From contig JACRCN010000094.1 of the NCBI GenBank assembly GCA_016219005.1, positions 62,001-126,000 on the forward strand: 64,000 bases of DNA. The letters are read 5' to 3'. The position numbers and the translations under genes are program-made. Shown here in pieces: positions 21,545 through 45,512 of the stretch. The notes below the pieces were generated by a model. It was given only the letters and a program-made list of their open reading frames with translations. It was not told the DNA's origin and made no database searches. Within the stretch, counting starts at the first letter, position 1, and every line of letters starts with the position of its first letter. The DNA is from Deltaproteobacteria bacterium (lineage in GTDB: Bacteria; Desulfobacterota; Desulfobacteria; Desulfobacterales; SpSt-501).

Positions 21545-21549
21545 ATCGG

Positions 21550-25135: not shown

Positions 25136-26524
25136 CTAATAACTTCCCCCTCCTTCGACCTCGTCGATGGCCTCCTCAAGGATCGCCAGCGCGCGGTCCA
25201 TCTCCTCGCGCGTGATCACAAGGGCCGGCCGCAGGGTCAGGACATTGCCGTCGATGGTTTTAGACGACAGCCCCTTCTCAAGGCACTTGAACATGACCCC
25301 CTCGGCTTCGTCCACGGCCCTTGCCCGGGTTGCGCGGTCACTCACCAGGTCGATCCCGATGTGCAATCCCAGCCCGGCCACGTGCCCGATCAGGGGATGC
25401 CGTTCCTGCATCTCGTTGAGACGTTGCAGCGCGTAAGCGCCGAGTTCGGCGGCATGTTCAGCCAGCCGGTGGTCTGCGATGTATTCGATTTCCGCCAGGG
25501 CGGCCGCCGCGCACAGCGCGTTTTTCTCGTGGGTGTAATGGCCGATGGACCGGTGCTGCAGCGTGTTGTATTCCTCGCGGGTGACGATCCCGGCAAAGGG
25601 CAAAATGCCTCCTCCCAGCGACTTGCCGAGCACCAGCACATCCGGAGTCACAAAGTGCTCGCTGGCGAACATCTTGCCGGTGCGGCCGAAGCCCTCTATA
25701 ATTTCGTCGAAGATCAGCAGGACGCCGTAGCGGCGGCAGAGATCCCGCACGCCCTCCCAGTAGCGCCGGGAGGGAATCACGGGTGCAGCCGAGATCGGCT
25801 CGCCGATGAGGGCCGACATCTCCGGCTCGCGCCCCAGCACCAGTTCGATCTGCCGCAGGCACTCGGCGTCGACGTCCTCCTCCCGATCAAATCCCCAGGG
25901 GTTGCGGTAGTAGTTCGGAAACTCGACGTGAAAGGTCCCCGGCATCATGGGGCCCAGGCCTCCGTGAAAATGCTCCTCGCCGCCGATGCCGGCCGCTCCG
26001 AAGCCCGCACCGTGAAAGGAATCCCAGAACGAAATGGTCTTGAAGCGGCCGGTCACCTGCCGCGCCAGCGCGAGCGCCATCTCGATCGCCTCCGAGCCGC
26101 CCGGGCAGAACAGGCTGCGGCAAAGGCCGGCGGGGGTGATTTCCGCCAGTTTCTTGGCCAGCTGAATGGCCGGGATGTTCGTGTACCGCCGCGGGCAGAA
26201 CGTCAGGCCTTCGTCCAACTGGCGCCGGACGGCGGCAATCACTTCCGGATTATTGAAGCCGGCATTATGGACGCCGTTGCCGTGCATGTCGATAAAGGGC
26301 TTGCCTTCCAGGTCCAGGATGTAAATCCCCTCCGCGCCCGAAAGCACGTTCAAAACGGGCGTCGAGAGGCTTTGATGGAGGAAATAGCGCGCGTCCTCCT
26401 CGAACCACCGGCGGGCCTCGGGCGACAGGTTGCGCTCCCAGTATTTTCTGCGGTTGGGCGTGGTGTTGACATCGCCCTGTTCCCGTTCCATGCGTTTGCC
26501 GTTCGGCGGCTGCGTCTTGGGCAT
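25136..26524 (-). CDS. Class III PLP-dependent aminotransferase-fold enzyme, PbfA-like
   Basis: 462 residues from the ATG at 26524 (site ggaagga). Fold-type I, class III: GGSEAIEMALALAR (PLP phosphate site), FDEIIEGFGRTGK, and the PLP lysine in VLGKSLGGGILP. Outside those motifs it shares with its divergent neighbour GDVNTTPNRRKYW, EDARYFLHQSLSTPVLN, MHGNGVHNAGF and GHYTHEKN, which are marks of the PbfA group, (R)-1-hydroxy-2-aminoethylphosphonate ammonia-lyase. It differs from the neighbour in the substrate-facing middle (FPNYYRNPWGFDREED), so its substrate may differ: lyase or transaminase cannot be decided. It lies in the phosphonate island. Confidence 0.85.
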   Translation of the reverse strand: MPKTQPPNGKRMEREQGDVNTTPNRRKYWERNLSPEARRWFEEDARYFLHQSLSTPVLNVLSGAEGIYILDLEGKPFIDMHGNGVHNAGFNNPEVIAAVRRQLDEGLTFCPRRYTNIPAIQLAKKLAEITPAGLCRSLFCPGGSEAIEMALALARQVTGRFKTISFWDSFHGAGFGAAGIGGEEHFHGGLGPMMPGTFHVEFPNYYRNPWGFDREEDVDAECLRQIELVLGREPEMSALIGEPISAAPVIPSRRYWEGVRDLCRRYGVLLIFDEIIEGFGRTGKMFASEHFVTPDVLVLGKSLGGGILPFAGIVTREEYNTLQHRSIGHYTHEKNALCAAAALAEIEYIADHRLAEHAAELGAYALQRLNEMQERHPLIGHVAGLGLHIGIDLVSDRATRARAVDEAEGVMFKCLEKGLSSKTIDGNVLTLRPALVITREEMDRALAILEEAIDEVEGGGSY

Positions 26525-26667
26525 GCTGAAGTCCTTCCGAGAAATTTTTAGAATAAGACCGTCGATCATCCAGCGCCAATCTATGCGGGTCAGGGGTTTC
26601 CAGCAAGCGAAAAAAAAAGCAACCGGTGGGATGACCGAAACTCATCCAACGCATGAGAAAGTTTCTT

Positions 26668-26697
26668 TTGACATTCCAACGACCAGCTAAATATAAA
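26668..26697 (+). promoter_or_regulatory. Strong sigma-70 promoter for the PbfA-like gene
   Basis: Perfect -35 ttgaca (26668-26673), 18-base spacer, -10 tataaa (26692-26697). The predicted start of transcription, about 26704, supports the ATG at 26749 over an open frame that begins at 26653. Confidence 0.75.
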
Positions 26698-26748
26698 GAG
26701 GTGGCTCTTCATGCACGCAACCTGATTATTCACGGAGAAACCATCCCC

Positions 26749-28110
26749 ATGGGCAAACTGCACAAATCCGAAGGCGACATCAACATCTCCCCGCGCCGCG
26801 AGCAATGGCAAGGCGCATACCTCAATGCCGATAGCCGCGCCCTATTGGAGGAGGATGCGCGCTATTTTCTGAAGCAGTCCCTTTCCACACCGTGCCTGAA
26901 CACCATGCGCGCCTGCCAAGGCATCTTCATTGAAGACACCCAGGGCCGCCGTTACATGGATTTTCATGGCAACAACGTGCACCAGGTCGGTTTCGGCAAC
27001 ATAGATGTGATTGCCGCCGTCAAGCGCCAGCTCGATGAGCTGCCGTTCTGCACGCGCCGCTACACCAACCGGGTGGCCGTCGACTTGGCCAGGAAGCTGG
27101 CCGAGATCGCGCCCGATCCCTTGAAGAAGTCGCTCTTCTGCCCCGGGGGCGCCGAGGCGGTCGGCATCGCGCTGAAGCTCGCGCGCATCGCCACCGGCCG
27201 GCACAAGACGATTTCCATGTGGGACGCCTTCCACGGCGCCACCCTGGACACCATCTCGATCGGCGGCGAGGCGATCTTCCGCCAGGGCATCGGCCCTCTC
27301 ATGCCCGGCACGGAACACGTGCCGCCGGCGGACGAGTATCGCTGCATCTTCGGCTGCGGCCGCCGCGGCGGCGGCTGCGACATGACCTGCGCCCGCTACG
27401 TGGAGTACATCCTGGAGAAGGAGGGTGATGTCGCCGCGGTGATCGCCGAGCCGATCCGCAGCACGCCCACCATTCCCAGGCCCGAGTACTGGCAGACCAT
27501 CCGCCGGGCCTGCGACCGCCACGGGACGCTGCTCATCTTCGACGAGATCCCGCATGCGCTGGGCCGCACCGGCCGCATGTTCACCTTTGAGAATTTCGGG
27601 GTCGTCCCAGACATGGTGGTCATCGGCAAGGGGCTGGGCGGCGGTGTTTTGCCGCTGGCCGCCCTGATGGTGCGCGCGGACCTGGATGTCGCCGCCGATC
27701 GCGCCCTCGGCCATTACACTCACGAAAAAAACCCGGTCCTGTGCGCCGCGGCCCTGGCGACGATCGAGTACATCGAAACACACGGCCTGGTCGTCCACGC
27801 GCGGCAGCTCGGCCGCTATACGCTGGATCGCCTGAAGGAGATGCGGGAACGGCACCCGCTGATCGGCGATGTCCGCGGGCTGGGGCTGTTCCTGGGCATC
27901 GAGCTCGTGCAAGACCGCGAAACGCGCGAACGCGCGAGCGACGAGGCCGAGGCGGTCATGTATGCGGCCCTTTCGCGTGGCCTGAGCTTCAAGACCACCA
28001 TGGGAAACATCCTGACGCTCACCCCGCCGCTCATCATCAGCCGGCCGGAGATGGACCAAGCACTCGCCATCATCGAGGAGTCTATCGCCGAGGTCGAGAA
28101 GCAAAGATAG
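26749..28110 (+). CDS. pbfA: (R)-1-hydroxy-2-aminoethylphosphonate ammonia-lyase-like PLP enzyme (PbfA)
   Basis: 453 residues. The sequence matches what I know of PbfA, a class III aminotransferase-fold lyase that turns (R)-1-hydroxy-2-aminoethylphosphonate into phosphonoacetaldehyde and ammonia: GDINISPRREQW, EDARYFLKQSLSTPCLN, DFHGNNVHQVGFGN, LPFCTRRYTNRVAV, ISMWDAFHGATLDTISIGGE, FDEIPHALGRTGRMF and PLP lysine VIGKGLGGGVLPLAAL. PbfA widens the substrate range of PhnW-based AEP pathways, and a phnW gene lies 3.5 kb away. The ATG at 26749 has a ggag site and fits the promoter. It is divergent from the paralogue at 25136. A cysteine-rich insert (IFGCGRRGGGCDMTC, near 205) is unusual and might bind metal. 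Confidence 0.85.
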   Translation: MGKLHKSEGDINISPRREQWQGAYLNADSRALLEEDARYFLKQSLSTPCLNTMRACQGIFIEDTQGRRYMDFHGNNVHQVGFGNIDVIAAVKRQLDELPFCTRRYTNRVAVDLARKLAEIAPDPLKKSLFCPGGAEAVGIALKLARIATGRHKTISMWDAFHGATLDTISIGGEAIFRQGIGPLMPGTEHVPPADEYRCIFGCGRRGGGCDMTCARYVEYILEKEGDVAAVIAEPIRSTPTIPRPEYWQTIRRACDRHGTLLIFDEIPHALGRTGRMFTFENFGVVPDMVVIGKGLGGGVLPLAALMVRADLDVAADRALGHYTHEKNPVLCAAALATIEYIETHGLVVHARQLGRYTLDRLKEMRERHPLIGDVRGLGLFLGIELVQDRETRERASDEAEAVMYAALSRGLSFKTTMGNILTLTPPLIISRPEMDQALAIIEESIAEVEKQR

Positions 28111-28194: not shown

Positions 28195-28209
28195 ATAACC
28201 TCAGGTTAT
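28195..28209 (+). promoter_or_regulatory. LysR-type T-N11-A palindrome upstream of the regulator gene
   Basis: ataacct-c-aggttat is a perfect palindrome with 7-base arms and fits the LysR box T-N11-A. It lies 31 bases before the start codon of the LysR gene, so autoregulation is likely. I saw no second copy in the window. Confidence 0.6.
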
Positions 28210-28240
28210 GCTAAAATTGCTTATCAATTCGGAGGGCATC

Positions 28241-29134
28241 ATGAACCTGAACCAGGTGAAAATATTCTACTCCGCCGTGAAGGCGGGCAATTTGAGCGCA
28301 GCGGCCGGCGAGCTCTGCATCACCCAGCCCGCGGTCACCAAGAGCATCCAGCGCCTTCAGGAGCACTACGATCTCAAACTCATCGACCACATCGGCAAGA
28401 AACTCCTTCTCACCGACGCCGGCGAGGCGCTGTACGCGATTGCCGAGAAGATCTTTGAAATGGAAAGCCACGCCGAGGAGAGCATCCGGGATTTCCAGCA
28501 ACGCCAGCGCGGACACGTCCGCATTCTCTCCAGCGAAAGCTTCGGAGATTACTATCTTCCCCAGGTGATCATCCCGTATTGCAAGGCCTATCCGCTGGTG
28601 AAGGTGTCCATGGACATCCTGCCGACCGACCTCGTCGTGGAAAACACCGCCAGCCTGAACTGCGACATCGGTTTCATCTCGTACCCGGTGGTACACGAGA
28701 AATTGACCATTCGGGATGTTCTGGAGGACAAGCTGGTCATCATCACCTCCCGAAGCCACCCGCTGGCGCGCAAAACGATGCTGAAACCGCATGACCTGCA
28801 GGGCCAGGCCGTGATCATGCACGAAAAAGGATCCGCGCCGCGCCGGGCGATCGAGGAGTTCATCCAGCGCCATGCCATCACGGTGAATATCCCCTTGGAA
28901 CTGACCAGCAACCGCGCCATCAAGCGTGCCGCGGAGCACGGCATCGGCATCGCGCTGGTTTCCCAAAAAGTGGCCGAAGAGGAAATCGAAGCGAAACGAC
29001 TCAGGGCCATTCCGATAGCGGACCCCTCCTTCAAACGCAAGTTCTACCTCATCCATCACAAGGAAAAATACATTTCCGAATCCCTGCAGCGGCTGATGGA
29101 CATGGTGTTCCAATGGGCTTCCGAGATCCACTGA
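28241..29134 (+). CDS. LysR-family transcriptional regulator of the phosphonate island
   Basis: 297 residues from the ATG at 28241 (site cggaggg). N-terminal winged helix: MNLNQVKIFYSAVKAGNLS, AAGELCITQPAVTKSIQRLQ and LIDHIGKKLLLTDAGEAL. The rest is a periplasmic-binding-like inducer domain (VRILSSESFGDYYLP, then DIGFISYPVVHEKL). LysR regulators such as AepR often control phnW/pbfA gene sets. Here it follows pbfA on the same strand and converges with the HAD gene, so it may control the operons on both strands. Confidence 0.9.
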   Translation: MNLNQVKIFYSAVKAGNLSAAAGELCITQPAVTKSIQRLQEHYDLKLIDHIGKKLLLTDAGEALYAIAEKIFEMESHAEESIRDFQQRQRGHVRILSSESFGDYYLPQVIIPYCKAYPLVKVSMDILPTDLVVENTASLNCDIGFISYPVVHEKLTIRDVLEDKLVIITSRSHPLARKTMLKPHDLQGQAVIMHEKGSAPRRAIEEFIQRHAITVNIPLELTSNRAIKRAAEHGIGIALVSQKVAEEEIEAKRLRAIPIADPSFKRKFYLIHHKEKYISESLQRLMDMVFQWASEIH

Positions 29135-29319: not shown

Positions 29320-30027
29320 TCAGCGGCGGCGGAGAAGCTCCAGCTGATGCAGTTGATCCAGCCGCGTGATCACGGGCACGTCGGGCGTAACCGCGGGCCA
29401 GGTGCGCCTTACGCTTTCGTGCTTGATCCACACGGGGTTGAGCCCGGCATCTCGCGACCCGCAGACGTCGATGCGCCAGTCGTCGCCGACGTAGACGGCC
29501 TCGGACGGAGCTACCCCCAGCGCAGCGACACACATCCGGAATGGGGCCGGGTCGGGCTTGGGAGGGATGTCGTTTTCACCGGCCACGATGATGATCCGGA
29601 AATAGGATTCAAGCTCCGGGAACTGGCGGATGCGGTGGGTGCCGGAGACAGGCTGCCCCTGGGTGTTGGTGACCAGGGCGACCTGGAACTGCGTGTTGAG
29701 CCGCTCCAGAACGCCCGGGGTTTCAGGGAACAGTACGGAATGGGCTTTCACCGTCGCCCAGTACTCGGTCTCCCAGGTGTCGAGCAGCGCCTCGTCCGGC
29801 AGCAGGCAATAATAGTGGTAGACGTCCCGCCACATGGCGCGGCGCGAGAAGTTCGACCGGCCGTGGAAGTCTTTGCGGACCTGCCGGTAGTGTTCCATGA
29901 ATTTTTCACGCAGCGATAGCGCCATGTGCCCGAACAGTTTTTCCTGGGCGTCCTTTTCGGCCCGCCGGAACCCGTCCGCGGAATCCACCATCGTCTGACC
30001 GAAATCGAAAATGACCGCTTTGATCAT
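29320..30027 (-). CDS. HAD-superfamily hydrolase with D-x-G motif I; candidate phosphonoacetaldehyde hydrolase
   Basis: 235 residues. HAD motifs: I VIFDFGQTMVDS, II LVTNTQG, III lysine in PPKPDPAPF, IV VGDDWRIDV, with a helical cap between about 20 and 95. In ordinary HAD phosphatases the residue two after the nucleophile is an acid (DxD). Here it is D8-F-G10. Phosphonoacetaldehyde hydrolase (PhnX) also lacks that acid, having Ala there, and uses a cap lysine near position 53 to form a Schiff base; this protein has a lysine at 52 in its cap. It is the last gene of the operon with phnW and an acylating aldehyde dehydrogenase. Overall identity to PhnX is low by eye, so a generic HAD role stays possible. 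Confidence 0.75.
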   Translation of the reverse strand: MIKAVIFDFGQTMVDSADGFRRAEKDAQEKLFGHMALSLREKFMEHYRQVRKDFHGRSNFSRRAMWRDVYHYYCLLPDEALLDTWETEYWATVKAHSVLFPETPGVLERLNTQFQVALVTNTQGQPVSGTHRIRQFPELESYFRIIIVAGENDIPPKPDPAPFRMCVAALGVAPSEAVYVGDDWRIDVCGSRDAGLNPVWIKHESVRRTWPAVTPDVPVITRLDQLHQLELLRRR

Positions 30028-30135: not shown

Positions 30136-31527
30136 TTAATCCTTGCCCCACTTCTTGAGGTAGTCCCCGAAGAGCTCTTCATCGGCGGGGATGTGCTCCT
30201 TGATGGGCATGGAGACCTGCGTGTAGTTCAGAAAATGCTGCCAGTTGACGTTTTCGCTCGTGATGTTTCCGGCCCAGGTGCCGCAGCCGAGGGTATCGGT
30301 GAAGGTCAGGCCGGAGCCCCAGCCGCCGCTGTTGGCGGCGGTGTGGCCCATGTTGCAGACCACCCGGCCGACTTTGGCCCGCAACGCGAGCTTTACCCGG
30401 CGCTCGTCCAACTCGGTGTGAATCGAGACCGAATGCCCCTTGCCCGAGAACTCGAGAATCTTTTCCAAGCGGTCCAGCATCTCGTCGAAGTCGCTCCACT
30501 TCCACACGGTTAGGACAGGAGAGATCTTCTCGCCGGAGAACCGGTCCTCGCGGCCGATCTTCTCGCCGATGACCATGAGGAACTTCGTCGTCTCCGGGAC
30601 CTTGATGCCGGCCAGATCGGCGATGAATTTGGCACTGTGGGCCACGATGTCGCGGTTCAGGGTCTTGCCGTCCGGCCACATGCACTTGCGCAGGGTTTCG
30701 CGCTCCGCGGTGCTGCACAGGTAGCCGCCCTCTTTCTTGAGGCACTCGATCATCTTGTCGTAGATGCTCGCGTGGAGAGCAACGGCATTCTCCGAGGAGC
30801 AGGAGGCGGCGTTGTTGGCGATCTTGGAAAGCATGATCTTGCGGGCGGTCGCCTGCAGGTCGGGCACCGTCTCATCTACGAAGGACACGACGTTCCCGGC
30901 GCCCACGGTCTGGGCCGGCTTGCCGGCCGCGTAGACGACCTTGACCAGGGCCGCACCGCCGGTCGCCACCGCAAAATCGCAGTAGGCCATCAATTCCTGA
31001 GTCTTGGCCTGGCTCGTGTTCTTGATGCACTGCAGCAGGTCCACCGGCGCGCCGATTTTTTTCAGGGCCTCCCGGCCATACTCCACCGTCAGGTAGGAAC
31101 TCTTCTGGGTGCGGGGGTGGGGGGAGACGATCATGGCGTTGCGTGTTTTCAGGGTGGACAGACCGATGCAGCAGATGGTCGACTCCGGGTTGGTGCAGGG
31201 AACCACATCCGCGACGACCCCGATCGGCTTGGCGTACTTGCGGATGCCGCGGACCTTGTCCTCCTCCACCAGGTCGCAGGTCTTCACCCCGCGCTGGTCC
31301 CAGAGGGTGCCCAGGGTCTTCGTCCTGATCTTGGCCAGCTTGTCCTCGTAGACCCCGATCCCGGATTCGTCCACGGCGGTCCGTGCCAGCACCTTGCGCA
31401 CTTCTTCCTTCTGCCAGATCCAGCCCACGGCCTGGACCACTTCGTCGACCCTCTCCTGGGGCCAGTACTGGTATTCCTCGAATGCCTTTTTAGCTTTGGC
31501 GTACATTTCCTTGATGTCGTCTTCCAT
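30136..31527 (-). CDS. Acylating (CoA-dependent) aldehyde dehydrogenase, EutE/SauS type
   Basis: 463 residues. The family oxidises an aldehyde with NAD(P)+ and CoA to an acyl-CoA; members act on acetaldehyde, propionaldehyde, succinic semialdehyde or sulfoacetaldehyde. Diagnostic parts are KPIGVVADVVPCTNPES, TLKTRNAMIVSPHPR and the catalytic C243 in NNAASCSSENAV; the NAAS-C-SSE context is that of acylating and not hydrolysing ALDHs. It lies in one operon with phnW (91 bases upstream) and the HAD protein (108 bases downstream). If the HAD protein makes acetaldehyde, this would give acetyl-CoA; without that step, phosphonoacetaldehyde or sulfoacetaldehyde would be the substrate. Sequence alone does not choose. 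Confidence 0.9.
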   Translation of the reverse strand: MEDDIKEMYAKAKKAFEEYQYWPQERVDEVVQAVGWIWQKEEVRKVLARTAVDESGIGVYEDKLAKIRTKTLGTLWDQRGVKTCDLVEEDKVRGIRKYAKPIGVVADVVPCTNPESTICCIGLSTLKTRNAMIVSPHPRTQKSSYLTVEYGREALKKIGAPVDLLQCIKNTSQAKTQELMAYCDFAVATGGAALVKVVYAAGKPAQTVGAGNVVSFVDETVPDLQATARKIMLSKIANNAASCSSENAVALHASIYDKMIECLKKEGGYLCSTAERETLRKCMWPDGKTLNRDIVAHSAKFIADLAGIKVPETTKFLMVIGEKIGREDRFSGEKISPVLTVWKWSDFDEMLDRLEKILEFSGKGHSVSIHTELDERRVKLALRAKVGRVVCNMGHTAANSGGWGSGLTFTDTLGCGTWAGNITSENVNWQHFLNYTQVSMPIKEHIPADEELFGDYLKKWGKD

Positions 31528-31618: not shown

Positions 31619-32752
31619 TTATTTAATGGGAATCGAATAGCCCATCTTCCGGAACGCCTCCTTGGCGACCACGAAGAAATCCTCGATATCCTTGTGGGTG
31701 ATGACGCCGAGGTTGCACAGCCGGAAGGTTTCCAGCCCGAACATCTTGCCCGGGTAGATGGTGAAGCCGCGCTCGTAGCAGTAGTCGTGCAGCTTGAAGA
31801 AATCGAACTTCCCGTCCTTGGGGGCCTTGATGGTGACCACCAGCTTGCCCTGGATCTTCTTGTCGATGACGGACGTCAGCCCGATCTCCTGCATGCCCTT
31901 GTGAACGGCCTCCCAGCACTTGCTCAAGCGCTCGTAGCGGGGCAGCTCTCCTTCCTGCCAGTATTCCTTGATGGCCTGCTGCAGGGAGTAAATGGTCTGG
32001 ACCGGGGGGGTGAAGTGCATTTCGCCCACCCGTTCGAAAAAGTCATACTGCATGAACAGGTTGCAGTAATAGGAGCGCGTTGGATAACCCTTGGACTTGA
32101 CGATCTCATCGATTTTGCCCACCGTCCAGGAGGCGCCGGTCATGGCCGCCAGACCCTTCTGGGCCGAGGACATGCAGAAGTCGATGTTTTCCTTTTCCAT
32201 GTCGATCGGGAGCAGCCCGTAAGTCGAAATCGTGTCGGCCACGAACACGCAGCCGTGGTCGTGGGCGATCTTTCCGATCTCCCGGACCGGGTTGAGCACC
32301 CCGGTGCCGGTTTCATGATGGGTGGTGGCGACCACCGCGATGTACTTGTCCTTGTCCAGGGCTTCCTTCACGGCCTTCAGGTCCGGAAGCCCGGTGGAGG
32401 GAAACTTCAGGTCCACGCAGGGGATGTGGTAGTACTGGGCGATCTCCACCATGCGGGCGGAATAGGACCCGTTGTTGACAACGCAGATCTTCTTGTTCGC
32501 GGGCACCAGGGAATTGACGAGCGCATCCTGGACGACCGTCCCGGAGCCGGTGAAGAGCACGGCCGTGTACTTCTTCGGGTCGGCGTGAACCACCTTGACC
32601 AGCTCGCGGCGGACTTCGTCCATGACGTTCACGAATTCCTTCTCCCGGGGGCAGATGTCGGGCACCACCTGGGCGTACTTCACCGTGTCGGTGGTGGTGG
32701 CCGGACCCGGGTTCAGAAGCACGTTGCGTTTGACGGGATTAACGATGTCCAT
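31619..32752 (-). CDS. phnW: 2-aminoethylphosphonate:pyruvate aminotransferase (PhnW)-like class V enzyme
   Basis: 377 residues, ribosome site ggagagg. Class V aminotransferase with LLNPGPATTTDTVKYAQVVPDICPRE cut here to its ends: LLNPGPATTT and DICPREKEF, the PhnW N-terminal motif; FTGSGTVVQDALVNSL; HHETGTGVLNPV; and the PLP lysine in SSAQKGLAAMTG. PhnW moves the amino group of AEP to pyruvate, giving phosphonoacetaldehyde and alanine. AEP-type transporter genes at 41.7-45.5 kb and alanine dehydrogenase at 51.1 kb support this. A relative acting on another aminoethyl compound such as taurine cannot be excluded. Confidence 0.85.
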   Translation of the reverse strand: MDIVNPVKRNVLLNPGPATTTDTVKYAQVVPDICPREKEFVNVMDEVRRELVKVVHADPKKYTAVLFTGSGTVVQDALVNSLVPANKKICVVNNGSYSARMVEIAQYYHIPCVDLKFPSTGLPDLKAVKEALDKDKYIAVVATTHHETGTGVLNPVREIGKIAHDHGCVFVADTISTYGLLPIDMEKENIDFCMSSAQKGLAAMTGASWTVGKIDEIVKSKGYPTRSYYCNLFMQYDFFERVGEMHFTPPVQTIYSLQQAIKEYWQEGELPRYERLSKCWEAVHKGMQEIGLTSVIDKKIQGKLVVTIKAPKDGKFDFFKLHDYCYERGFTIYPGKMFGLETFRLCNLGVITHKDIEDFFVVAKEAFRKMGYSIPIK

Positions 32753-32850: not shown

Positions 32851-33906
32851 CTACAGTTTTCCGACTTTCTTGATGCCTGACTTTTTACTCGGATCGTGGA
32901 TCTCCTCGACGATGCCGTGCCCGCTGCCGATGAGCTTTTTCCGCTCGTCCCGGGCCCGGGCCCATTCGGCCGTCGTGCGGCAGATGCCCGACTGCGCGAC
33001 CTTCGCACGGTCTTTCAGCGGGGGTACCGGGCGATCCGCCGGCCCGTCGTAATCTTCCTTGGGGGTCAGGGCTTCACCCAGCCGCGTGTACCCGTTTCTT
33101 TCGGTCTCCTCGATGTAGTGGGCCCCGACGCTGAGGGCTCGGGTCACGGCCAGGATGGCCCAGGTGGCTTCCGGCGAGAACCCGAGGTCCATCATCGTGG
33201 CGCCGATCGCACCGAGCATGTCCAGGTCCACCGGCTCGGGACTCTGTTTCCGGGCGGCCGCGACGATCTCCTTCGTGAAGGCGATGTACTTCCCGGCCAC
33301 CCCGAGCTTCTCGGCCCGCGCGAACATGCGCTTGGCCGCCGGGTCCTTCAGCATGAGGTTCGAAACCCCCAGGGCCTCGTCGTTCAGGTTCTCCTTGACC
33401 AAGAGCTCAGCGGCCTGGGCCGTGCTCAGCCCCTGCTTTTCGGCCCTCTTCAAGTATTTCTCCAGACGGTTGCCGAAGGCGGAGTAAGCACCGAAGGCGT
33501 GGCCGAAGGCCAGGATCGAGGCCGCGGCGGCCTGGGTGAGAAAGGTCTTGGTCCGGGCGACGATGCGGGACATGGCGGCCGGCGCGGAGAGCCCGTCCTC
33601 GAGGGCCAGGATGAGCACGTAGTTGAGCATCTGCTCTTCTTCCACCAGCGGAATACGGGCCTGGTAGTCGACGAACAGCACGTCGACGATCCCGTAGCCT
33701 TCTTCCATCAACTCGGTGGTGTCGTACCCGCGAGACACGATGCGGTGGACGTTCTTGTAGGCCACCTCGGACACCCACTGGAACGGCGCCCGCTTGGTGT
33801 CGCGCGGCACGGTGCCGTACTCCCGCTTGAAATAATCAAACGGCATCTTCGGGCTGTCCAGATTCCCGACGCCGCGCGCTTTCTTGGTTTCGTTCAGATC
33901 GCCCAT
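32851..33906 (-). CDS. Citrate-synthase-fold protein B with altered active site
   Basis: 351 residues from the ATG at 33906, which overlaps the upstream paralogue by 13 bases (site aaggaga). The citrate synthase/citryl-CoA lyase fold is seen in GYDTTELMEEGYGIVDVLFV, ILALEDGLSAPAAMSRIVA, AFGHAFGAYSAFG and MMDLGFSPEATWAILAVTR. By my eye alignment none of the three catalytic residues of citrate synthase is conserved: the GxxHG region reads FGHAFGAY with the histidine displaced, GFGHR is replaced by LGVSNLMLKDP, and the NVD aspartate is a leucine. N- and C-terminal extensions (about 40 and 60 residues) are basic. With its partner it may form a hetero-oligomer with other chemistry. Confidence 0.8.
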   Translation of the reverse strand: MGDLNETKKARGVGNLDSPKMPFDYFKREYGTVPRDTKRAPFQWVSEVAYKNVHRIVSRGYDTTELMEEGYGIVDVLFVDYQARIPLVEEEQMLNYVLILALEDGLSAPAAMSRIVARTKTFLTQAAAASILAFGHAFGAYSAFGNRLEKYLKRAEKQGLSTAQAAELLVKENLNDEALGVSNLMLKDPAAKRMFARAEKLGVAGKYIAFTKEIVAAARKQSPEPVDLDMLGAIGATMMDLGFSPEATWAILAVTRALSVGAHYIEETERNGYTRLGEALTPKEDYDGPADRPVPPLKDRAKVAQSGICRTTAEWARARDERKKLIGSGHGIVEEIHDPSKKSGIKKVGKL

Positions 33907-34790
33907 TTCTTGTATTCTCCTTCCTCTTTCTGTTTCCTGGCGTATTCCTGCCGTTCGGCCTGCTTGGGCACGACCCGGTCTTCCGGGCCGACGTACTTGA
34001 TCATGGACAGATCGATCATCTGCACCATGGGCTCGTTGCGCGAGGCGCCCCAGGCCCGGCCCTTCTTCATGTTGAACAGGGCATGGGCCGCGCAGCTGTA
34101 TCCGCGGCAGACGCTGCCGAGGCACCAGCCCGCGTTGGGGGAAAAACCGATCTCCATCAGGGCCGTGTTGCCGGAACCGACCACGTTCACACCCACCTTG
34201 GACCGGCCCTCCAGCTTGCGCCGGGCATGGAAATACTTCTCGACCGCCCGCTGAAACTCGAGGTAGACCCCCTCCAGCTTCAGTTCTTCCTGCTTGACAT
34301 GGATCGGCTCGGCGCGGGGGTCGCTGTCGATGTGCTGCGGCTGGCCCATGCCCATGACCGGTGTTTCCGCGTCCATGTACTCATCCACCAGGATCTTCGC
34401 CATTTCGTCGACGGTTTTGCCTTCGCGCTGCGCGCGCTCAAGGTATTTGTTCAACATGTAGCCGTGGGCAGCCCCCGGGCCGTGCACACCGCCGAAGGTG
34501 CTCACCGCCGCCGCAATCGCGCAGGGCAGGTTCGGGCGCCCGGCGCTTACGCCGATGGCGGCCACTGCCGAGGGCGACATGGAGTGCTCCAGGAAGACGC
34601 CCATTTCGTACTTCAGCATCTTCTCTTCGGCTTCGGGGGGAATGCGGCCTTGGTACAGCACAAAGAGGGCGTCACAAAAGGAGTAGCCCTCTTCCGCCAG
34701 TTCGCTCAGGTCGTACCCGCGCATGACGGTCTTTTCCTCCGTCTTGTAGGAAATGGCGGTTTTCCTGCGAAAAAAAGGTTCTCTGCTCAT
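33894..34790 (-). CDS. Citrate-synthase/citryl-CoA-lyase-fold protein A with altered active site
   Basis: 298 residues. Fold markers are MRGYDLSELAEEGYSFCDALFVLYQGRIPP (in part: GYDLSELAEEGYSFCDALF), GVFLEHSMSPSAVAA, FGGVHGPGAAHG and GMGQPQHIDSDPRAEPI. The first catalytic histidine (GGVHG) is present. The second (GFGHR in citrate synthase, GFGHPxH in citryl-CoA lyase) is Gln, with the histidine three residues later kept. The catalytic Asp of NVD is replaced (VNVVGSGNTALMEIGFSP). It is the second gene of the phnW operon after the small gene at 34923, has promoter P1 directly upstream and overlaps the second paralogue. Substrate and reaction are unknown; a lyase on a hydroxy-acyl-CoA is one idea. 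Confidence 0.82.
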   Translation of the reverse strand: MSREPFFRRKTAISYKTEEKTVMRGYDLSELAEEGYSFCDALFVLYQGRIPPEAEEKMLKYEMGVFLEHSMSPSAVAAIGVSAGRPNLPCAIAAAVSTFGGVHGPGAAHGYMLNKYLERAQREGKTVDEMAKILVDEYMDAETPVMGMGQPQHIDSDPRAEPIHVKQEELKLEGVYLEFQRAVEKYFHARRKLEGRSKVGVNVVGSGNTALMEIGFSPNAGWCLGSVCRGYSCAAHALFNMKKGRAWGASRNEPMVQMIDLSMIKYVGPEDRVVPKQAERQEYARKQKEEGEYKKWAI

Positions 34791-34903: not shown

Positions 34904-34948
34904 ACTATAAATTGCCCCACAATTATAAGTCAAAATAATTAAAATCAT
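34904..34948 (-). promoter_or_regulatory. Promoter P1 of the phnW operon, AAGTCAA/TAATTAAA class
   Basis: Minus strand: -35 ttgact (34933-34928), 18-base spacer, -10 tatagt (34909-34904), and an A+T-rich block (aaaataattaaaat on the plus strand) upstream. It lies about 115 bases before the first citrate-synthase-like gene and inside the 3' end of the small gene. It is nearly the same as P2 at 35242. Confidence 0.7.
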
Positions 34949-35135: not shown

Positions 35136-35527
35136 TTCATTTCCTCCTGCGTTTGCGGCACGGTGCTGCATAAAGAATCCGCAACGGTGAATATCTTTTG
35201 AACTGGGAATTGCAACCCTGAGTCAATCCTGAGTTAAAGAAACTATAGGGTCGCCGCCAACTATAAGTCAAACTAATTAAAATTATGTTTTTGATGAAAT
35301 ATTGTTATGAAATACCGACTGCTCAGTGCCCGAATGCACCTGGTTGCTTGGCTGCGGTGAGGCGTGGGGAAGTTTGATCCGGCAGCATGCCTGGTTCACA
35401 GGGGAGTGTAAAACGGCGTCTCAGGCCCTGATCAGGCGTTGCGCGTCCTTGGCAAGTTCTCACATATCAATGGATCAGCTTGTCGATTTAACCCTGTAAA
35501 ATATTGCTTTATCGGAGCCGTGTGGCG
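35136..35527. other. 392-base intergenic region between small gene and alcohol dehydrogenase
   Basis: It holds promoter P2 (35242-35288) reading left. I see no gene. A direct repeat cctgagt lies twice near 35217-35233 downstream of P2, and a short palindrome cctgatcagg near 35428. The right part is the 3' trailer of the alcohol dehydrogenase transcript, which also reads left, with no obvious terminator. Confidence 0.5.
35242..35288 (-). promoter_or_regulatory. Promoter P2, near copy of P1
   Basis: Minus strand: -35 ttgact (35271-35266), 18-base spacer, -10 tatagt (35247-35242), with the same A+T-rich upstream block. P1 and P2 share about 24 of 28 bases upstream of the -35 side plus both boxes and spacing, which suggests duplication or a common regulator. 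Confidence 0.7.
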
Positions 35528-36622
35528 TCATAGCTTAATCGCCACCCGGATCGCCTTGCCCGAGTGGGCCACTTCCATCGCCTGGTTGATCTCATCCAAC
35601 GCAAAGCGGTGGGTCACAATGTCTTTAAAAGGGAATAAGCCCTGGTAGCGCTGCAGGAAGTCAATCCCCCATTCCAGGTGTTTTGTGTCATAATTGTGCA
35701 CCCCTTTTATGGTCAGCCAGCGGAAAATGATATCCGAGGCATCGTATGTGAAGTTGGCTCCGGGAAACACGTTGCCTATCTCGATGTATTGGCCACCCTT
35801 TCGCAGGCATTTCAACCCGACCGGAACCACCTCGGGCCGTCCGGCAACCTCCATGGCGACATCCGCTCCGAAGCCCCGCGTCATGCCCTGGATCATCCTG
35901 ACAAGATCTTCGCCCTGCACCTCTTTGACATTGACGGTATCCGTCGCCCCAAACTGTTTGATAAACTCCAACCGGTTGTCCATGACATCGGTGACGATGA
36001 TTCTATTGCAGCCTTGGGACTTGGCCAATGCCGCGGCATAGATACCCAACGTCCCGGCGCCCTGGATCAATATGTTGTCGCCGGGCTCCAATCGCGCCGC
36101 ATCCCATCCGGCAGCCACGGTGGCAAGCGCGCAGTTCGCGGAAGCAGACACCTCATCCGACAGATCGTCCGGGATTTTGATTACGCAGGTTCCGGGCATG
36201 ACGTAGCAGTACTCGGCAAACCCTCCGATGAAGTGCGGCGGAGCCGCACAGCTGTCATGGCCGTACTTCTTCAAATCCAGGCACTTCATCATGAGCCCTT
36301 TTTCTCGGCAGTAATAGCATTTGCCGCAACTATCCATGATGGTCCAGGTGATGCGGTCTCCAATTGTTAACGGCCGCCCCCCGGAATCCCAGGATACGCC
36401 CGCTCCCATTTCCACGATCTCGCCCATGATCTCATGGCCAAGTATGATCGGTGTGGGGCTGGGCCGGGTCCCCAGCCAGGTATGGAGGTCCGACCCGCAG
36501 ATCGCACAACACTTGATTTTGACGAGAATCCAGCCTTTCTCGACGCCGGCCAGAGGGTACTCCCAGATTTCCAAAGGGGCCTTGGCTTTTGTCATTACCG
36601 CCGCTCTGCCTTTCGGTTGCAT
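35528..36622 (-). CDS. Zinc-binding alcohol dehydrogenase, phosphonate-catabolism-associated type
   Basis: 364 residues from the ATG at 36622 (site aaaggagag). Medium-chain dehydrogenase: catalytic zinc ligands in CCAICGSDLHTW and GHEIMGEIV, structural zinc cysteines in DSCGKCYYCREKGLMMKC, Rossmann motif GAGTLGIYAAALAKS. The stretch KYGHDSCAAPPHFIGGFAEYC followed by PGTCVIKIPDDLSDEVSASANCALATV (shown in parts) resembles the alcohol dehydrogenase family often linked to phosphonate gene sets. It is the last gene of an operon with a TRAP importer, so it probably oxidises the imported hydroxy compound. A hydroxyalkyl-phosphonate or -sulfonate is a guess. Confidence 0.88.
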   Translation of the reverse strand: MQPKGRAAVMTKAKAPLEIWEYPLAGVEKGWILVKIKCCAICGSDLHTWLGTRPSPTPIILGHEIMGEIVEMGAGVSWDSGGRPLTIGDRITWTIMDSCGKCYYCREKGLMMKCLDLKKYGHDSCAAPPHFIGGFAEYCYVMPGTCVIKIPDDLSDEVSASANCALATVAAGWDAARLEPGDNILIQGAGTLGIYAAALAKSQGCNRIIVTDVMDNRLEFIKQFGATDTVNVKEVQGEDLVRMIQGMTRGFGADVAMEVAGRPEVVPVGLKCLRKGGQYIEIGNVFPGANFTYDASDIIFRWLTIKGVHNYDTKHLEWGIDFLQRYQGLFPFKDIVTHRFALDEINQAMEVAHSGKAIRVAIKL

Positions 36623-36737
36623 ACCGGTCTCTCCTTTATGCACGTCCGGGTGGGAACGATAAGATCGGCGACATCCTCTCTGAATGAACTTGGCCGTGCC
36701 TATCGACAAATGCCATATCGATAAAAATGTTAGCGAA

Positions 36738-38054: not shown

Positions 38055-38147
38055 TTACACCTCCCGCATCCAATCGCTTTCATGGATTCAGAGCAAGTCG
38101 CGGTCCCCCGGAACAAGGGCTTGGCCGCATCCGGGAGAAGGGCGGTT

Positions 38148-38687
38148 TCAGGTAATTTCGGTTGGAGCCGCAATGTTGCGCTCGTCCTTTCCCGTCAGGA
38201 TCAGTTTTGCCGATTTAAGGATCTCCGAGATGCCCTGGAGTAGAATCAGGGATGCGCTCACGGGAATGACCAGCTTATACAAGTATGCAGGGGGCCTCCA
38301 AGTCGTCATCAGCTGTTCCTTGAGGTCCCAGGATTCGGCGAAGAAATCCCAGCTCAGCCAGGCGAACATCACCATCCCGGGAAGGAAGAGGAGCACGTAG
38401 CAGATCACATCGACCCAAGCCTGGGTCTTCGGAGACCACTTTCCGTACCAGAAATCGGTCCGGATATGCTTTCCCAGATACAGGGTCATGGCGCCCGCGA
38501 TGAAGAAATGGGTTCCGTACGCCATGGTCGCGATGTCCACAGCCCAGAGCGTGGGTCGGTAGATATAGCGGATAAGCACTTCCCAAACCAGCACACCCGC
38601 CATCGGGATGATAAGCCAGGCAGCGGCCTTCCCCGACCAGAGGCTGATCCGGTCAATCACCTTGATGATCCGATCGATAGGGTTCAT
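38148..38687 (-). CDS. TRAP transporter small permease (DctQ family)
   Basis: 179 residues from the ATG at 38687 (site ggagaaa). Four hydrophobic segments; AWLIIPMAGVLVWEVLIRYIY and LYLGKHIRTDFWYGKWS are typical. It lies between the binding protein and the large permease in one operon. Confidence 0.92.
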   Translation of the reverse strand: MNPIDRIIKVIDRISLWSGKAAAWLIIPMAGVLVWEVLIRYIYRPTLWAVDIATMAYGTHFFIAGAMTLYLGKHIRTDFWYGKWSPKTQAWVDVICYVLLFLPGMVMFAWLSWDFFAESWDLKEQLMTTWRPPAYLYKLVIPVSASLILLQGISEILKSAKLILTGKDERNIAAPTEIT

Positions 38688-38797
38688 GTTTCGTTTCTCC
38701 ACAACTTGAAGGACGGGCATCTGCTCGCTTCACGCCAGCGGCTTGAAACGACCAGTGTTCCCCGCCGCGTGATTCGCTCCCTCCGGGAAAAAGGCCT

Positions 38798-40632: not shown

Positions 40633-41481
40633 TTAGAAAGACTTGATGGCTACGGCGCCAATGGTGACGATGGAGATCGACACACACCGCAGCGGCGTAA
40701 TGCGCTCTTTTAAAACGAAGACCGCCAACACTGCACTGAAGACAATCGATGTTTCCCGGAGGGCGGCCACAGGCGCTATGGGCGCCTTCGTCATGGCCCA
40801 GAGCGCCAGGCTATAGGAAGCAAATGTTAAGACGCCGCCAATCGCCCACTTTTTCCATTGGGCCCAGACATGGTATGCGACCTGCCGTCCACGAAGGGCG
40901 AAAGCGGTTACAAAAACGAGCACACCCGTCAGCAGAAACATCCAGCCGGTGTAACTGAACGCATTCCCGGAAAGGCGGGCGCCGAGGCCGTCGACCAATG
41001 TGTAGCCCACGATCACCCCTGCATTCAGGAGGGCGAAACCGACCGGTGCGAGACGGACACCCCTTGATTGCGGAGAATCCGCCGCCAGAAGCAATACCCC
41101 GCCCGACACCAGAAATACCCCGGTCCACCCTCCCCAGGACGGCTGTTCGCCCAGCAAGACCGCAGCGAGCAAAGCCGTGAATGCCGGTGCCGTGCCCCGC
41201 ATGATGGGATACACCAGGCTCAAGTCGCCCTTCCGGTAAGCGAGCACCAAGAACGCATAATAGGCCACATGAATCACGACCGACCCGACCAGGCACAGCC
41301 AGCTGGCTTCGAGCGGCAGGGGCATCGGGAGAAAGACCAACATGATCGCCGTTGCAGCGGCAAGGCAGGTTGCGACCGAGACCGTGTCAAGAAACGGGTC
41401 CGAGCCCGATTTGACGAGAGCGTTCCAACTGGCATGACACGCTGCGCCAAGAAGGACCGCCAGCATGACTTCGAAAGACAA
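40633..41481 (-). CDS. EamA/DMT-family permease
   Basis: 282 residues, probable TTG start at 41481 (an ATG at 41466 is the alternative). Ten hydrophobic segments in two EamA repeats: LLGAACHASWNALVKSGSDP, YPIMRGTAPAFTALLAAVLLGEQP and, in the second half, ALWAMTKAPIAPVAALRETS plus VFVLKERI. DMT permeases export or import small metabolites; genes of this type often sit in aminophosphonate gene sets. It has the same direction as the TRAP operon but is separated from it by 636 bases. Confidence 0.87.
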   Translation of the reverse strand: MSFEVMLAVLLGAACHASWNALVKSGSDPFLDTVSVATCLAAATAIMLVFLPMPLPLEASWLCLVGSVVIHVAYYAFLVLAYRKGDLSLVYPIMRGTAPAFTALLAAVLLGEQPSWGGWTGVFLVSGGVLLLAADSPQSRGVRLAPVGFALLNAGVIVGYTLVDGLGARLSGNAFSYTGWMFLLTGVLVFVTAFALRGRQVAYHVWAQWKKWAIGGVLTFASYSLALWAMTKAPIAPVAALRETSIVFSAVLAVFVLKERITPLRCVSISIVTIGAVAIKSF

Positions 41482-41660: not shown

Positions 41661-42764
41661 CTACCTTTTTCTTTTCAGGAGATGAACGCTGCGGGGGATG
41701 TGCACTTCAACCTTTTCGGCGTGCTTGAATTGCTGCGCATCCCGAGGGTTGTACTGGTCGATGATCATGGTCCTGTCACCGATCTTGACCGTACATTTCG
41801 CCAGCGAGCCGGCATACATATATGATTTCAGGGCGCCGCTGAGGACATTCTGCCCTTTGCCGCCACAGTCCAACGAGATGTTCACGCTCTCCGGCCGGAT
41901 GACCATGAGAACCTCGTCTGCGCTATTGATATCGCCCTGCGATAGCGTGATCTCGATCTTCCCATATTCCGTGTTGATGACCGTATTGCGTGTGTTTTCG
42001 TCGATGGACGCGACCCGGCCCTCCATGAAATTGACGTAGCCCACGAAACCCGCGATGAATTCATTCGCCGGCCGCTCGTAGATCTCGATCGGGCTTCCGA
42101 CCTGTTCGATCAGGCCGTCCTTCATGACGACGAGGCGATCGGAAATAGCCATCGCCTCGAACTGGTCGTGTGTCACAAAAACGGTCGTAATTTGAAGCCT
42201 CTCCTGAAGGTTGCGGATCTCTTCGCGCATGACGAGCCTCAGGTTCGCGTCGAGGTTGGACAGCGGCTCATCTAAAAGAAGCACCTTCGGCTCGAGGCTG
42301 AGCGCCCGGGCGAAGGCGACACGCTGCTGCTGACCACCGGAGAGCCGGTCGATCATCCGATCTGCAAACGCCTGCAGTTCGACCATCTCGAGCAGCTCCT
42401 TGACCCTCGCCTCGATCCTGTGCTTGGGCCACTTGTTGATCTTCAAGCCGTAGCCGACGTTTTCCGCCACGGTCATGTGGGGAAAGAGGGCGTAATTCTG
42501 AAAGCAGATCCTCGTATCCCGCAGGTTCGGCGGAAGATCGTTGATCCGCTGTCCGTCAAGGATGATATCCCCGGAACTGACATCGGTGAAACCGCCGATG
42601 AGGCGCAGCAGCGTCGTCTTCCCGCACCCGCTCGGCCCGACGAATGTGACCAACTCTCCCTTTCGCACCTCCAGGGAAACCCCCTTGATGACCTCGTTTT
42701 TTCCATAAAACTTGTGGATGTCCTTCAGGATCAGCATCGGTCTTTCATTTTCCCGCATGTCCAT
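41661..42764 (-). CDS. ABC transporter ATPase, 2-aminoethylphosphonate (PhnT)/PotA-FbpC type
   Basis: 367 residues. Walker A GPSGCGKTTLLR (near 47), signature LSGGQQQRVAFARAL, Walker B VLLLDEPLSNLDA, H-loop VTHDQFEAMAISD, then a TOBE-type C-terminal domain (VMVIRPESVNI-like VLMVIRPESVN). Length and domain order fit the CUT/FbpC group that includes the AEP importer ATPase. It ends a three-gene minus-strand operon. The permease and binding-protein types favour AEP over iron or polyamines. Confidence 0.9.
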   Translation of the reverse strand: MDMRENERPMLILKDIHKFYGKNEVIKGVSLEVRKGELVTFVGPSGCGKTTLLRLIGGFTDVSSGDIILDGQRINDLPPNLRDTRICFQNYALFPHMTVAENVGYGLKINKWPKHRIEARVKELLEMVELQAFADRMIDRLSGGQQQRVAFARALSLEPKVLLLDEPLSNLDANLRLVMREEIRNLQERLQITTVFVTHDQFEAMAISDRLVVMKDGLIEQVGSPIEIYERPANEFIAGFVGYVNFMEGRVASIDENTRNTVINTEYGKIEITLSQGDINSADEVLMVIRPESVNISLDCGGKGQNVLSGALKSYMYAGSLAKCTVKIGDRTMIIDQYNPRDAQQFKHAEKVEVHIPRSVHLLKRKR

Positions 42765-42788
42765 ATCGCCAGCGCCTTCCTTACGTTG

Positions 42789-44510
42789 TCATACTGCGGC
42801 CGACTTTTTCATGCTGCCGCCCAACCTGGTTTTGTTTCTGATGAAATTCAGGATCAGCATGCAGATCGTGACGATCAGAACCAGTTTCATCGTCGTGGCG
42901 GAGGCGATACCGACTTCACCATAAACGGCGGCGTCGAAGATCTTCACGGAGGCCAGAGCGAATCCCGGGCTGACAAGAAAGACGACGGCGCTCAGGGAGA
43001 CGATCGCCGTCATGAAGGTATAGATGAATCCCGCAATGAAGGCGGGAAACATGATCGGCAGGACAATCCGGTAGAAGGTGGTCAGGAAGCTGGCGCCCAG
43101 GTCCGCAGAGGCCTCCTCGATCTCGATGTTAATCTGGTGGAGTTTGCTGATTCCCGCCTCCACGCCGACGGCAAGGAAACGAAAGACGCAGTTCAGGGCC
43201 AGGATCATGATCCCGCCTGTCAGTTTGAGGGGTGGAGCGCTGAAGGCGAGCAGGTAACCGATGCCGACGACCGTTCCGGGGAGGGCAAACCCGGAAAGGG
43301 AAACCATTTCAATGAAAGTGCGGCCGAAAAATTTCCCCCGCACAATGACGTATGCCAGGAGGACACCGATGAAAGCGCCGATGACGGCCGCCACGAAACT
43401 CACTCGGATGCTGTTATAGATCGCCTGGTTCGAGGTAAAATCAAGGTAATTGGACAAAACGACGTTGTGCGTGACTCCGAGGATCTTATAGAAGGATGCC
43501 ACAAATACGACGGCAAAGCAGATGAAAATCGCCCCCGCGGCGACCGTTGTGATGATGATGAAGGGGGCCTGGATCAGGGGAGTGATCTTCCGCGGCTCCG
43601 AAGCGACCGGTTTCCCCCCGATCGTCGTGAATTTCTTCCCCTCCAGCAGGTAATTATGGATGAAAAAAATAATGATGCAGGGGGCGATCAGGATGACGGA
43701 GAGCACGCTGCCCATGTTGAAATCGGATTCCCCGGTGATCATCGTATAGGTATCCGGCGCCAGGAAAGGGGTCCGCCCTCCCAGGATCGCGGCGTTGCCG
43801 AACTCGGCGATGGTCATGACGAAGATCAGCAGGGCCGCCTTGAGCAGCCCCGGCGCAAGCAGCGGGATGGTGATCGTGCGGAGGATGGTCGCTTCCGACG
43901 CCCCCATGTCATAAGCGCTCTCCTCAAGATTCGGGTTGAGCGACATCAAGGTGTTTTCGATCATCATGTAGGCGAGCGGGATGAAGGCCAGCGTTTGGGA
44001 GATGACGACGCCGTTGAAGCCGTAAAGCTGCCAGTGAAGGTCGAACATCCTGGTGACGATGCCGTTACGGCCGAACAGAATAATGAGCGAAAGGGCAAAC
44101 AGGTACGGGGGAGCGATCAGCGGAATGAGGGCGATGATCTTCAGCGGCTTTCGCAGTATCCAGGGTCCCCGTGTCGTCATATAAGCGAGACAGAAGCCGA
44201 TGACGAGGCAGACCACGGTATTGATCACCCCGAGGAGAAGTGTGTTGAACAGGGACTGAAAGTAATAATTCTTGCTGAAAAAGGACCGGTAATATTCCAG
44301 CGTGAATCCCGACGGTCCCCGGAGGCTCTTGATGAGAACCGCGATGATGGGATAGAGGAGAAAGAAGGCGAGCAGCAAGAATAAAAACGCAGCCAGGATG
44401 TTGATCAGGTTTGCATTCAGGAAATCCCTTATCTTGCTGCCGCTGCTTGCCTGCAATTTAACAGACAATTCTGCCGGTGCCATCTTTCTCCCGCCGCGGT
44501 CACCCATCAT
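42789..44510 (-). CDS. ABC transporter permease, fused two-domain, AEP (PhnU)/FbpB type
   Basis: 573 residues from 44510; an ATG at 44483 with a gggag site is an equally likely start. About 12 hydrophobic segments in two BPD_transp_1 halves, each with a coupling loop (MGASEATILRTITIPLLAPG and LGASFLTTFYRIVLPIMFPA). Fused permeases of this length are known in ferric-iron importers and in the putative AEP importer family. It starts ten bases after the binding-protein stop. Confidence 0.9.
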   Translation of the reverse strand: MMGDRGGRKMAPAELSVKLQASSGSKIRDFLNANLINILAAFLFLLLAFFLLYPIIAVLIKSLRGPSGFTLEYYRSFFSKNYYFQSLFNTLLLGVINTVVCLVIGFCLAYMTTRGPWILRKPLKIIALIPLIAPPYLFALSLIILFGRNGIVTRMFDLHWQLYGFNGVVISQTLAFIPLAYMMIENTLMSLNPNLEESAYDMGASEATILRTITIPLLAPGLLKAALLIFVMTIAEFGNAAILGGRTPFLAPDTYTMITGESDFNMGSVLSVILIAPCIIIFFIHNYLLEGKKFTTIGGKPVASEPRKITPLIQAPFIIITTVAAGAIFICFAVVFVASFYKILGVTHNVVLSNYLDFTSNQAIYNSIRVSFVAAVIGAFIGVLLAYVIVRGKFFGRTFIEMVSLSGFALPGTVVGIGYLLAFSAPPLKLTGGIMILALNCVFRFLAVGVEAGISKLHQINIEIEEASADLGASFLTTFYRIVLPIMFPAFIAGFIYTFMTAIVSLSAVVFLVSPGFALASVKIFDAAVYGEVGIASATTMKLVLIVTICMLILNFIRNKTRLGGSMKKSAAV

Positions 44511-44519
44511 TGAACTTGA

Positions 44520-45512
44520 TTATTTGAAATCGGTTCTCAATTTCTGCTTCCAGATATCGTTGTTCTTGGGTTTGTCATCCGCCGCCTTGGCCAGATCCAG
44601 CTTGATGTACTTGGGCAGCGTCTTGCCGTAAAGGGCGTTCGGCGCCGGCCGGGGCGTCACGTAGCCGATCTCCGCCATGAGCGTGCTGAATTCGGGGGTG
44701 CCCAGAACGTCAATGATTTTTTTGCAGGCGGCGAGTTTCTTCGTTCCCTTGAAGATCAGGGCATAGGTGCCGTCATAACCGGTCCCTTCGTTGGGAATCG
44801 ACCAGATCAGCGGATAGCCGTCATCGATGCGTTTCTTGACGTTCTCGTCCGAAGTGATGCCCAGCATGAATTCGCCTCGGCCGACGAGATCCGTCGGGGC
44901 ATTGCCGCTGCGGGTGTAATAAGCGATATTCTTGTCCAGGGCTTCGAGAAATTTCCAGCCTTCATCGTCCCCGTAGAGGGCCAGGAAGGAGAATCTCATC
45001 ATGTTCGCGGTGCCCGAACTCAGTGGCGAGGGCATGAGGATCTCACCCTTCCATTTCGGATCCAGCAGGTCCTTCCAGCTCGTGGGCATGGAATATCCCG
45101 CCTTGGCCAGTCTATCTTTGCTGCCGACCAGGACGAAGGAAAAATTGGCGATGTTGTACCAGTCGCCCTGCGGGTCCATAAATACCTCCGCTACACCCTT
45201 CCAGGCCGGGGATACATAGGGGTGGGACCAGCCGCTCTTCTTGGCCATGAAGGCCAGCGGCGAGCCGCAGCCGATGATCATGTCCGCGTTGAAATTCGGG
45301 GCTTCGGCCTTGGCACGGGCCTCGATTTCCCCGAAGGACTGGAAGGTCTGGTTGACGGTGATTCCTGTTTTATCCTTGATGAACTTGGCGATCTTGGCGT
45401 TGTTGTCCGGAGAGGTACCCATGTAGGCATTTATATCTTCCGCCGGGGTGCTGCCCGCGAGCACCAACGAGAAGATCGCGGCGACGACGAATGCAATGGG
45501 CTTTCTTTTCAT
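44520..45512 (-). CDS. ABC transporter periplasmic binding protein, AEP (PhnS)/FbpA-like
   Basis: 330 residues, ribosome site ggaggg. Signal peptide 1-24 (AFVVAAIFSLVLAGSTPAE). Mature part is a family 1 binding protein: ADMIIGCGSPLAFMAKKSGW, FVLVGSKDRL, PTSWKDLLDPKWKGEI, PSPLSSGTANMM. The tyrosine pair that binds iron in FbpA proteins is not seen near the C-terminus, which argues against ferric iron. Together with phnW and pbfA an AEP-type ligand is the best guess. Confidence 0.88.
   Translation of the reverse strand: MKRKPIAFVVAAIFSLVLAGSTPAEDINAYMGTSPDNNAKIAKFIKDKTGITVNQTFQSFGEIEARAKAEAPNFNADMIIGCGSPLAFMAKKSGWSHPYVSPAWKGVAEVFMDPQGDWYNIANFSFVLVGSKDRLAKAGYSMPTSWKDLLDPKWKGEILMPSPLSSGTANMMRFSFLALYGDDEGWKFLEALDKNIAYYTRSGNAPTDLVGRGEFMLGITSDENVKKRIDDGYPLIWSIPNEGTGYDGTYALIFKGTKKLAACKKIIDVLGTPEFSTLMAEIGYVTPRPAPNALYGKTLPKYIKLDLAKAADDKPKNNDIWKQKLRTDFK

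Follow-up and report, generated by a model that had tools for sequence, protein, structure and literature searches.

The genes A and B encode two paralogous proteins of the citrate-synthase fold which have lost most or all of the catalytic triad and stand in the company of phosphonate genes. Quite probably, the module they form belongs to phosphonate catabolism and works at the step of phosphonoacetyl-CoA. It may well be, and this is our tentative proposal, that A and B form a hetero-oligomer which acts on an acyl-CoA in anaerobic phosphonate catabolism and cleaves the C-P bond, alone or together with a HAD hydrolase. The fold, the residue pattern, the pairing of the genes, their company and their co-occurrence were observed; the assembly of A with B, what they act on, the cleavage and the part played by the HAD protein are predicted. 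The surrounding cluster is as follows (positions refer to the window, the whole stretch of 64,000 nucleotides that was analysed):

25136..26569, minus strand: second PbfA-family gene, above cut-off
26653..28110, plus strand: listed part of the cluster
28208..29134, plus strand: LysR regulator, related to the phosphonate regulator model TIGR03339, below cut-off
29320..30027, minus strand: HAD hydrolase, motif I mostly DF(G/D/Y/V)QT, near-constant partner in the module
30136..31527, minus strand: CoA-acylating aldehyde dehydrogenase, SauS-like (NF047625, 497.8 bits, below the SauS cut-off of 600)
31619..32752, minus strand: 2-aminoethylphosphonate aminotransferase (TIGR03301 PhnW-AepZ, 417 bits, cut-off 361)
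32851..33906, minus strand: gene B, paralogue of A, 351 aa, ATG at 33906, proposed structural or interface partner
33894..33906, minus strand: 13-base overlap of the A stop (TGA) and the B start (ATG), kept across phyla
33894..34790, minus strand: gene A, citrate-synthase-fold subunit, 298 aa, proposed catalytic subunit
34920-34934 and 35258-35272, minus strand: two copies of TTTGACTTATARTTG upstream of A, promoter- or operator-like
35528..36709, minus strand: phosphonate-associated alcohol dehydrogenase (TIGR03366 HpnZ, just below cut-off)
40633..41481, minus strand: phn_DUF6-like membrane protein (TIGR03340, below cut-off)
41661..45512, minus strand: ABC transporter like the 2-aminoethylphosphonate PhnT2/PhnU2/PhnS2 set, all below cut-off

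A and B stand at the head of a run that continues with phnW, the acylating aldehyde dehydrogenase and the HAD hydrolase. Both frames are open, the overlap of A with B likely reflects translational coupling, and the intergenic gaps that follow B measure about 90-110 bases. Both proteins exceed the cut-off of 27 of the Pfam model Citrate_synt (PF00285), A with 58.3 and B with 30.1 bits, and both match the NCBIfam citryl-CoA lyase models (PRK06224) below cut-off (A at best 112.9 bits, cut-off 212; B at best 100.8 bits, cut-off 193). Citryl-CoA lyase 6hxp is the first match of either protein in a PDB sequence search and also in a Foldseek search with single-chain AlphaFold models, whose confidence is modest (mean pLDDT: A 61, B 67). 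In a phylogenetic tree, A and B form sister clades within the short citryl-CoA-lyase branch (support 100/99), pointing to one old duplication whose products have been paired ever since. The description in an earlier note, two overlapping paralogues of the citrate-synthase fold, thus stands, with Pfam matches for both proteins and an overlap of exactly 13 bases in the place given.

Active sites were compared in an alignment of A and B to ten citrate synthases and to three short proteins resembling citryl-CoA lyase, taken from the searched genomes. Pig numbering is used, and residue roles are those usual in the family. A retains H69 (pig His238), H103 (His274), R159 (Arg329) and R229 (Arg401), and carries Q150 in place of His320 and V204 in place of Asp375. 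B, with F138 (His274), V181 (His320) and L231 (Asp375), keeps no member of the His-His-Asp triad, and among the four positions retained in A it has only the equivalent of Arg401, R256. The window's own citrate synthase (52335-53708) possesses the full His274-His320-Asp375 set. The earlier note was therefore right that A keeps only the thioester-binding histidine of the triad, B none and the synthase all three, and wrong that the losses in A and B are complementary, as most of the site is kept in A and almost none in B. Judged by its residues, A looks like a catalytic subunit, with H69, H103, R159 and R229 in place, and B like its partner.

Conservation was assessed over 57 sequences of A and 55 of B, which come from about ten phyla. 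H69, H103, Q150, R159 and R229 are invariant in all 57 A sequences, while position 204 is Val in 54 and Ile in three; position 138 of B is always Tyr or Phe (55/55) and position 231 is Leu in 54 of 55. A is the most conserved of the five proteins compared, with 81% mean pairwise identity, B and the dehydrogenase reaching 69-70%. Since the replacement residues are fixed across homologues, the site appears re-specialised, not decayed, and a pseudogene reading is ruled out by their fixation over 57 sequences. The loss of two catalytic residues out of three in A, and of all three in B, would also agree with a catalytically dead scaffold or regulator of the operon. This reading is very improbable, however, A being the best conserved protein, with its replacements fixed and its thioester histidine intact.

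The same residues bear on the possibility that A/B condenses phosphonoacetyl-CoA with an oxo acid (oxaloacetate, glyoxylate), phosphate being removed later. In fold and anion-binding residues A/B matches the citrate synthase family, and the two arginines that contact oxaloacetate in citrate synthases, R159 and R229, never vary in A. Yet A has lost both the general base (Asp375, now Val204) and the oxo-acid histidine (His320, now Gln150), and no gene that would handle such a product recurs downstream in the loci, so we regard a condensation as rather improbable.

Compared with known enzymes, A shares the short citrate-synthase fold, the thioester histidine and the substrate arginines with citryl-CoA lyase (6hxp, Hydrogenobacter) and the corresponding module of ATP citrate lyase. 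In contrast to these, A lacks the catalytic Asp and the second His, and B lacks all three residues; moreover, one subunit serving citrate metabolism there is replaced by two subunits in a phosphonate operon here. The fixed Asp-to-Val change and the phosphonate gene context speak against canonical citryl-CoA cleavage, the unrelated function which the earlier note had set against its own proposal. PDB titles record Asp-to-Ala mutants of ATP citrate lyase (D541A, D1026A) with bound (3S)-citryl-CoA or substrates; within the family, the mutated Asp corresponds to the one replaced in A.

A single scan of bacterial and archaeal genomes yielded 62 loci with full-length A at 69-92% identity. B directly follows A in all 53 loci with enough flanking sequence, mostly with the identical 13-base overlap. 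This pairing is far beyond chance and bears out the obligate-looking pair of the earlier note. A occurs in Desulfobacterota, Planctomycetota, Chloroflexota, Verrucomicrobiota, Gemmatimonadota, Spirochaetota, Bacteroidota, SAR324 and others, most of the A-bearing genomes being metagenome bins, individual taxon assignments of which may be wrong. Among 297 genomes drawn from the window's phylum, A is present only in the window's own genome and in one other (G349), and two more have only distant short-lyase relatives. Such patchy occurrence, combined with high identity, suggests horizontal transfer; no match to A was found in a plasmid collection.

The pair has two constant neighbours: the CoA-acylating aldehyde dehydrogenase is linked to A/B in 35 of 37 loci and the HAD hydrolase in 22 of 31, and where they are not beside A, their orthologues are usually found elsewhere in the same genome. 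Among 58 relatives, orthologues of both occur in 4 of the 6 genomes with A and in 1 of the 52 without it (Fisher p = 0.00017). In G005 and G043, which have A, the two orthologues were not found; A-B lies there a few kilobases at most from the contig's first base, and a contig break may account for the absent partners. G039 has the dehydrogenase and the HAD gene, A was not detected in it, and its contig ends inside the dehydrogenase gene. No HAD orthologue was found in three A-bearing genomes (G064, G066 and G369), so the HAD protein may be non-essential. In G070 the module is split between two loci (L137/L138), PhnW, dehydrogenase and HAD hydrolase lying at one place and PhnX-like protein, alcohol dehydrogenase, DUF6, A and B at the other.

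Entry enzymes differ between the loci. Most Desulfobacterales have the TIGR03301 type of PhnW, planctomycetes and chloroflexi the classical PhnW (TIGR02326), several lineages PbfA, and others an HpnZ-type alcohol dehydrogenase, in some cases together with a GlpT-like antiporter; two verrucomicrobial loci carry phosphonoacetate hydrolase. These varied enzymes would share the product phosphonoacetaldehyde, which for the alcohol dehydrogenase is a guess from its gene company. An obligate link of A/B to phnW is thus rejected: of the expectation that A-B pairs travel with phnW and the acylating dehydrogenase, only the second half holds. The dehydrogenase, whose catalytic Cys243 is invariant among homologues, is predicted to be an acylating phosphonoacetaldehyde dehydrogenase. 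As a constant partner in a phosphonate context, it supports the proposed link of A/B to a phosphono-acyl-CoA made by the neighbouring enzyme. Of the 39 loci that span 10 kb or more, 34 have one or more phosphonate-associated genes when the criteria are loose and admit general transporter ATPases, and by our own count 25 have a strict marker (PhnW, PbfA, PhnX-like, phn_DUF6, PhnA or PhnS2).

The best NCBIfam model for the dehydrogenase is that of the sulfoacetaldehyde dehydrogenase SauS, and an SsuA-type transporter is encoded at 19.8-24.5 kb of the window. Both would be expected of a sulfonate pathway, in which sulfoacetaldehyde is converted to sulfoacetyl-CoA and A/B acts on the latter. Nevertheless, the match to SauS, although to the nearest named model, reaches 498 bits against a cut-off of 600, and the neighbours are phosphonate, not sulfonate, genes: the window contains two PbfA genes (700 and 656 bits, cut-off 525), PhnW and transporter genes of the 2-aminoethylphosphonate type, and phosphonate genes recur next to A across phyla. 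A sulfonate substrate is accordingly very improbable.

Which enzyme, then, cleaves the C-P bond? Profiles for PhnJ (PF06007), PhnX (TIGR01422) and PhnA (TIGR02335) were applied at curated cut-offs. By these cut-offs, 21 of the 24 A-bearing genomes lack C-P lyase, phosphonatase and phosphonoacetate hydrolase; PhnJ is found in one, PhnA in two and PhnX in none. In the window's genome (98.5% complete), the profile search detected neither PhnJ nor PhnX nor PhnA. As these three enzymes are mostly absent, A/B and the HAD hydrolase remain as candidates for C-P cleavage, and for the same reason a new condensation is less likely than cleavage.

In motif I of the HAD hydrolase the nucleophilic Asp is kept, and at the position of the second Asp, the usual acid/base of phosphomonoesterases, most sequences have Gly and only a few have Asp. 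Phosphonatase has Ala at this position, and some HAD phosphatases also lack the acid/base Asp. The resemblance of this motif to phosphonatase is only suggestive.

In L064 and L070 A has PhnA as a neighbour, and several loci have a PhnX-like gene in the vicinity of A (about 8 kb away in G066); in loci where they accompany A, these enzymes could cleave the C-P bond independently. Together with the nearly constant HAD gene, they would suit a scheme in which A/B only hydrolyses phosphonoacetyl-CoA to phosphonoacetate or moves CoA, and the bond is cleaved by PhnA, the PhnX-like protein, the HAD hydrolase or something unrecognised. We consider this unlikely: PhnA is above cut-off in so few of the 24 genomes and PhnX in none, and the energy of a thioester made merely for hydrolysis would be wasted.

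On the preferred reading, cleavage of the C-P bond by A/B, the pathway would run as follows. PhnW, PbfA and the alcohol dehydrogenase would turn aminoethylphosphonate, hydroxy-aminoethylphosphonate and probably hydroxyethylphosphonate into phosphonoacetaldehyde, which the SauS-like dehydrogenase would oxidise to phosphonoacetyl-CoA with formation of NADH. A/B would then split the C-P bond of this thioester, giving acetyl-CoA and phosphate. H103 of A would hold the thioester carbonyl and stabilise the acetyl-CoA enolate as leaving group, and an anion pocket of H69, R159, R229 and Q150 would hold the phosphono group at the place taken by oxaloacetate in citrate synthase. Citryl-CoA lyase frees the same enolate from a C-C bond; A is proposed to free it from a C-P bond. 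No proton would have to be removed, so no base would be needed, which fits the loss of the catalytic Asp in A. The HAD protein might be the direct phosphoryl acceptor or might hydrolyse a phosphorylated intermediate formed by A/B.

Such a pathway would resemble the PhnW-PhnX (phosphonatase) route in the formation of phosphonoacetaldehyde by PhnW, in the presence of a HAD-fold hydrolase and in a C-P cleavage relying on the adjacent carbonyl. It would differ in that the aldehyde is first oxidised to a CoA thioester and acetyl-CoA, not acetaldehyde, is released, PhnX being above cut-off in none of the 24 genomes. With PhnW-PhnY-PhnA it would share the oxidation of phosphonoacetaldehyde before C-P cleavage, whereas here the CoA-acylating dehydrogenase replaces PhnY, and PhnA reaches its cut-off in only 2 of 24 genomes.

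The routes known so far for the commonest natural phosphonate finish with PhnX, PhnA or C-P lyase. The literature searched contained no such degradation pathway through phosphonoacetyl-CoA, a compound named in a paper on flavophos biosynthesis (PMC12871164). Nor did it contain a paper linking citrate synthase with aminoethylphosphonate catabolism; both terms occur in PMC4046663, where they are treated separately. According to this genome survey of 2013, none of the sulfate-reducer genomes available by then contained PhnX (PMC4046663).

The cluster around A/B probably serves uptake and degradation of natural phosphonates in mostly oxygen-free sediments. With clearly more reserve, we suggest that a citrate-synthase-fold heteromer cleaving the C-P bond on a CoA thioester might be the central step of an undescribed phosphonate pathway, spread horizontally over about ten phyla of mostly sediment bacteria. 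If this is true, the thioester route would yield anaerobes acetyl-CoA and NADH besides phosphate, and sediment phosphonates would be sources of carbon and energy, beyond their supply of phosphorus. It would also add new chemistry to the citrate synthase fold, and the highly conserved A would become a marker gene for an unseen part of the phosphorus cycle.

Several minor observations concern the surroundings of the module. The two copies of TTTGACTTATARTTG upstream of A are 338 bases apart, each is followed by a TATAGT hexamer, and their chance expectation in the window is 0.05. The twin motif is not common to the loci; beyond the window's genome it recurs only once, in L020. In L037 (7154-8527 and its neighbour) and L040, PbfA is separated from A by two tandem genes, each for a protein of about 457 aa, and L074 is listed with them; the L037 copy that was scanned has no NCBIfam match. 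In the window, SsuA-type, sulfonate-like ABC transporter genes (19864-24511, minus strand) lie close to the second PbfA gene. A TRAP transporter, possibly for another phosphonate or a sulfonate, is encoded between the alcohol dehydrogenase and the phn_DUF6 gene (36738-40395, minus strand). Finally, a PiT-like permease and a DUF47 protein (46005-47611, minus strand) adjoin the aminoethylphosphonate-type transporter, and this pair could export surplus phosphate from phosphonate use.
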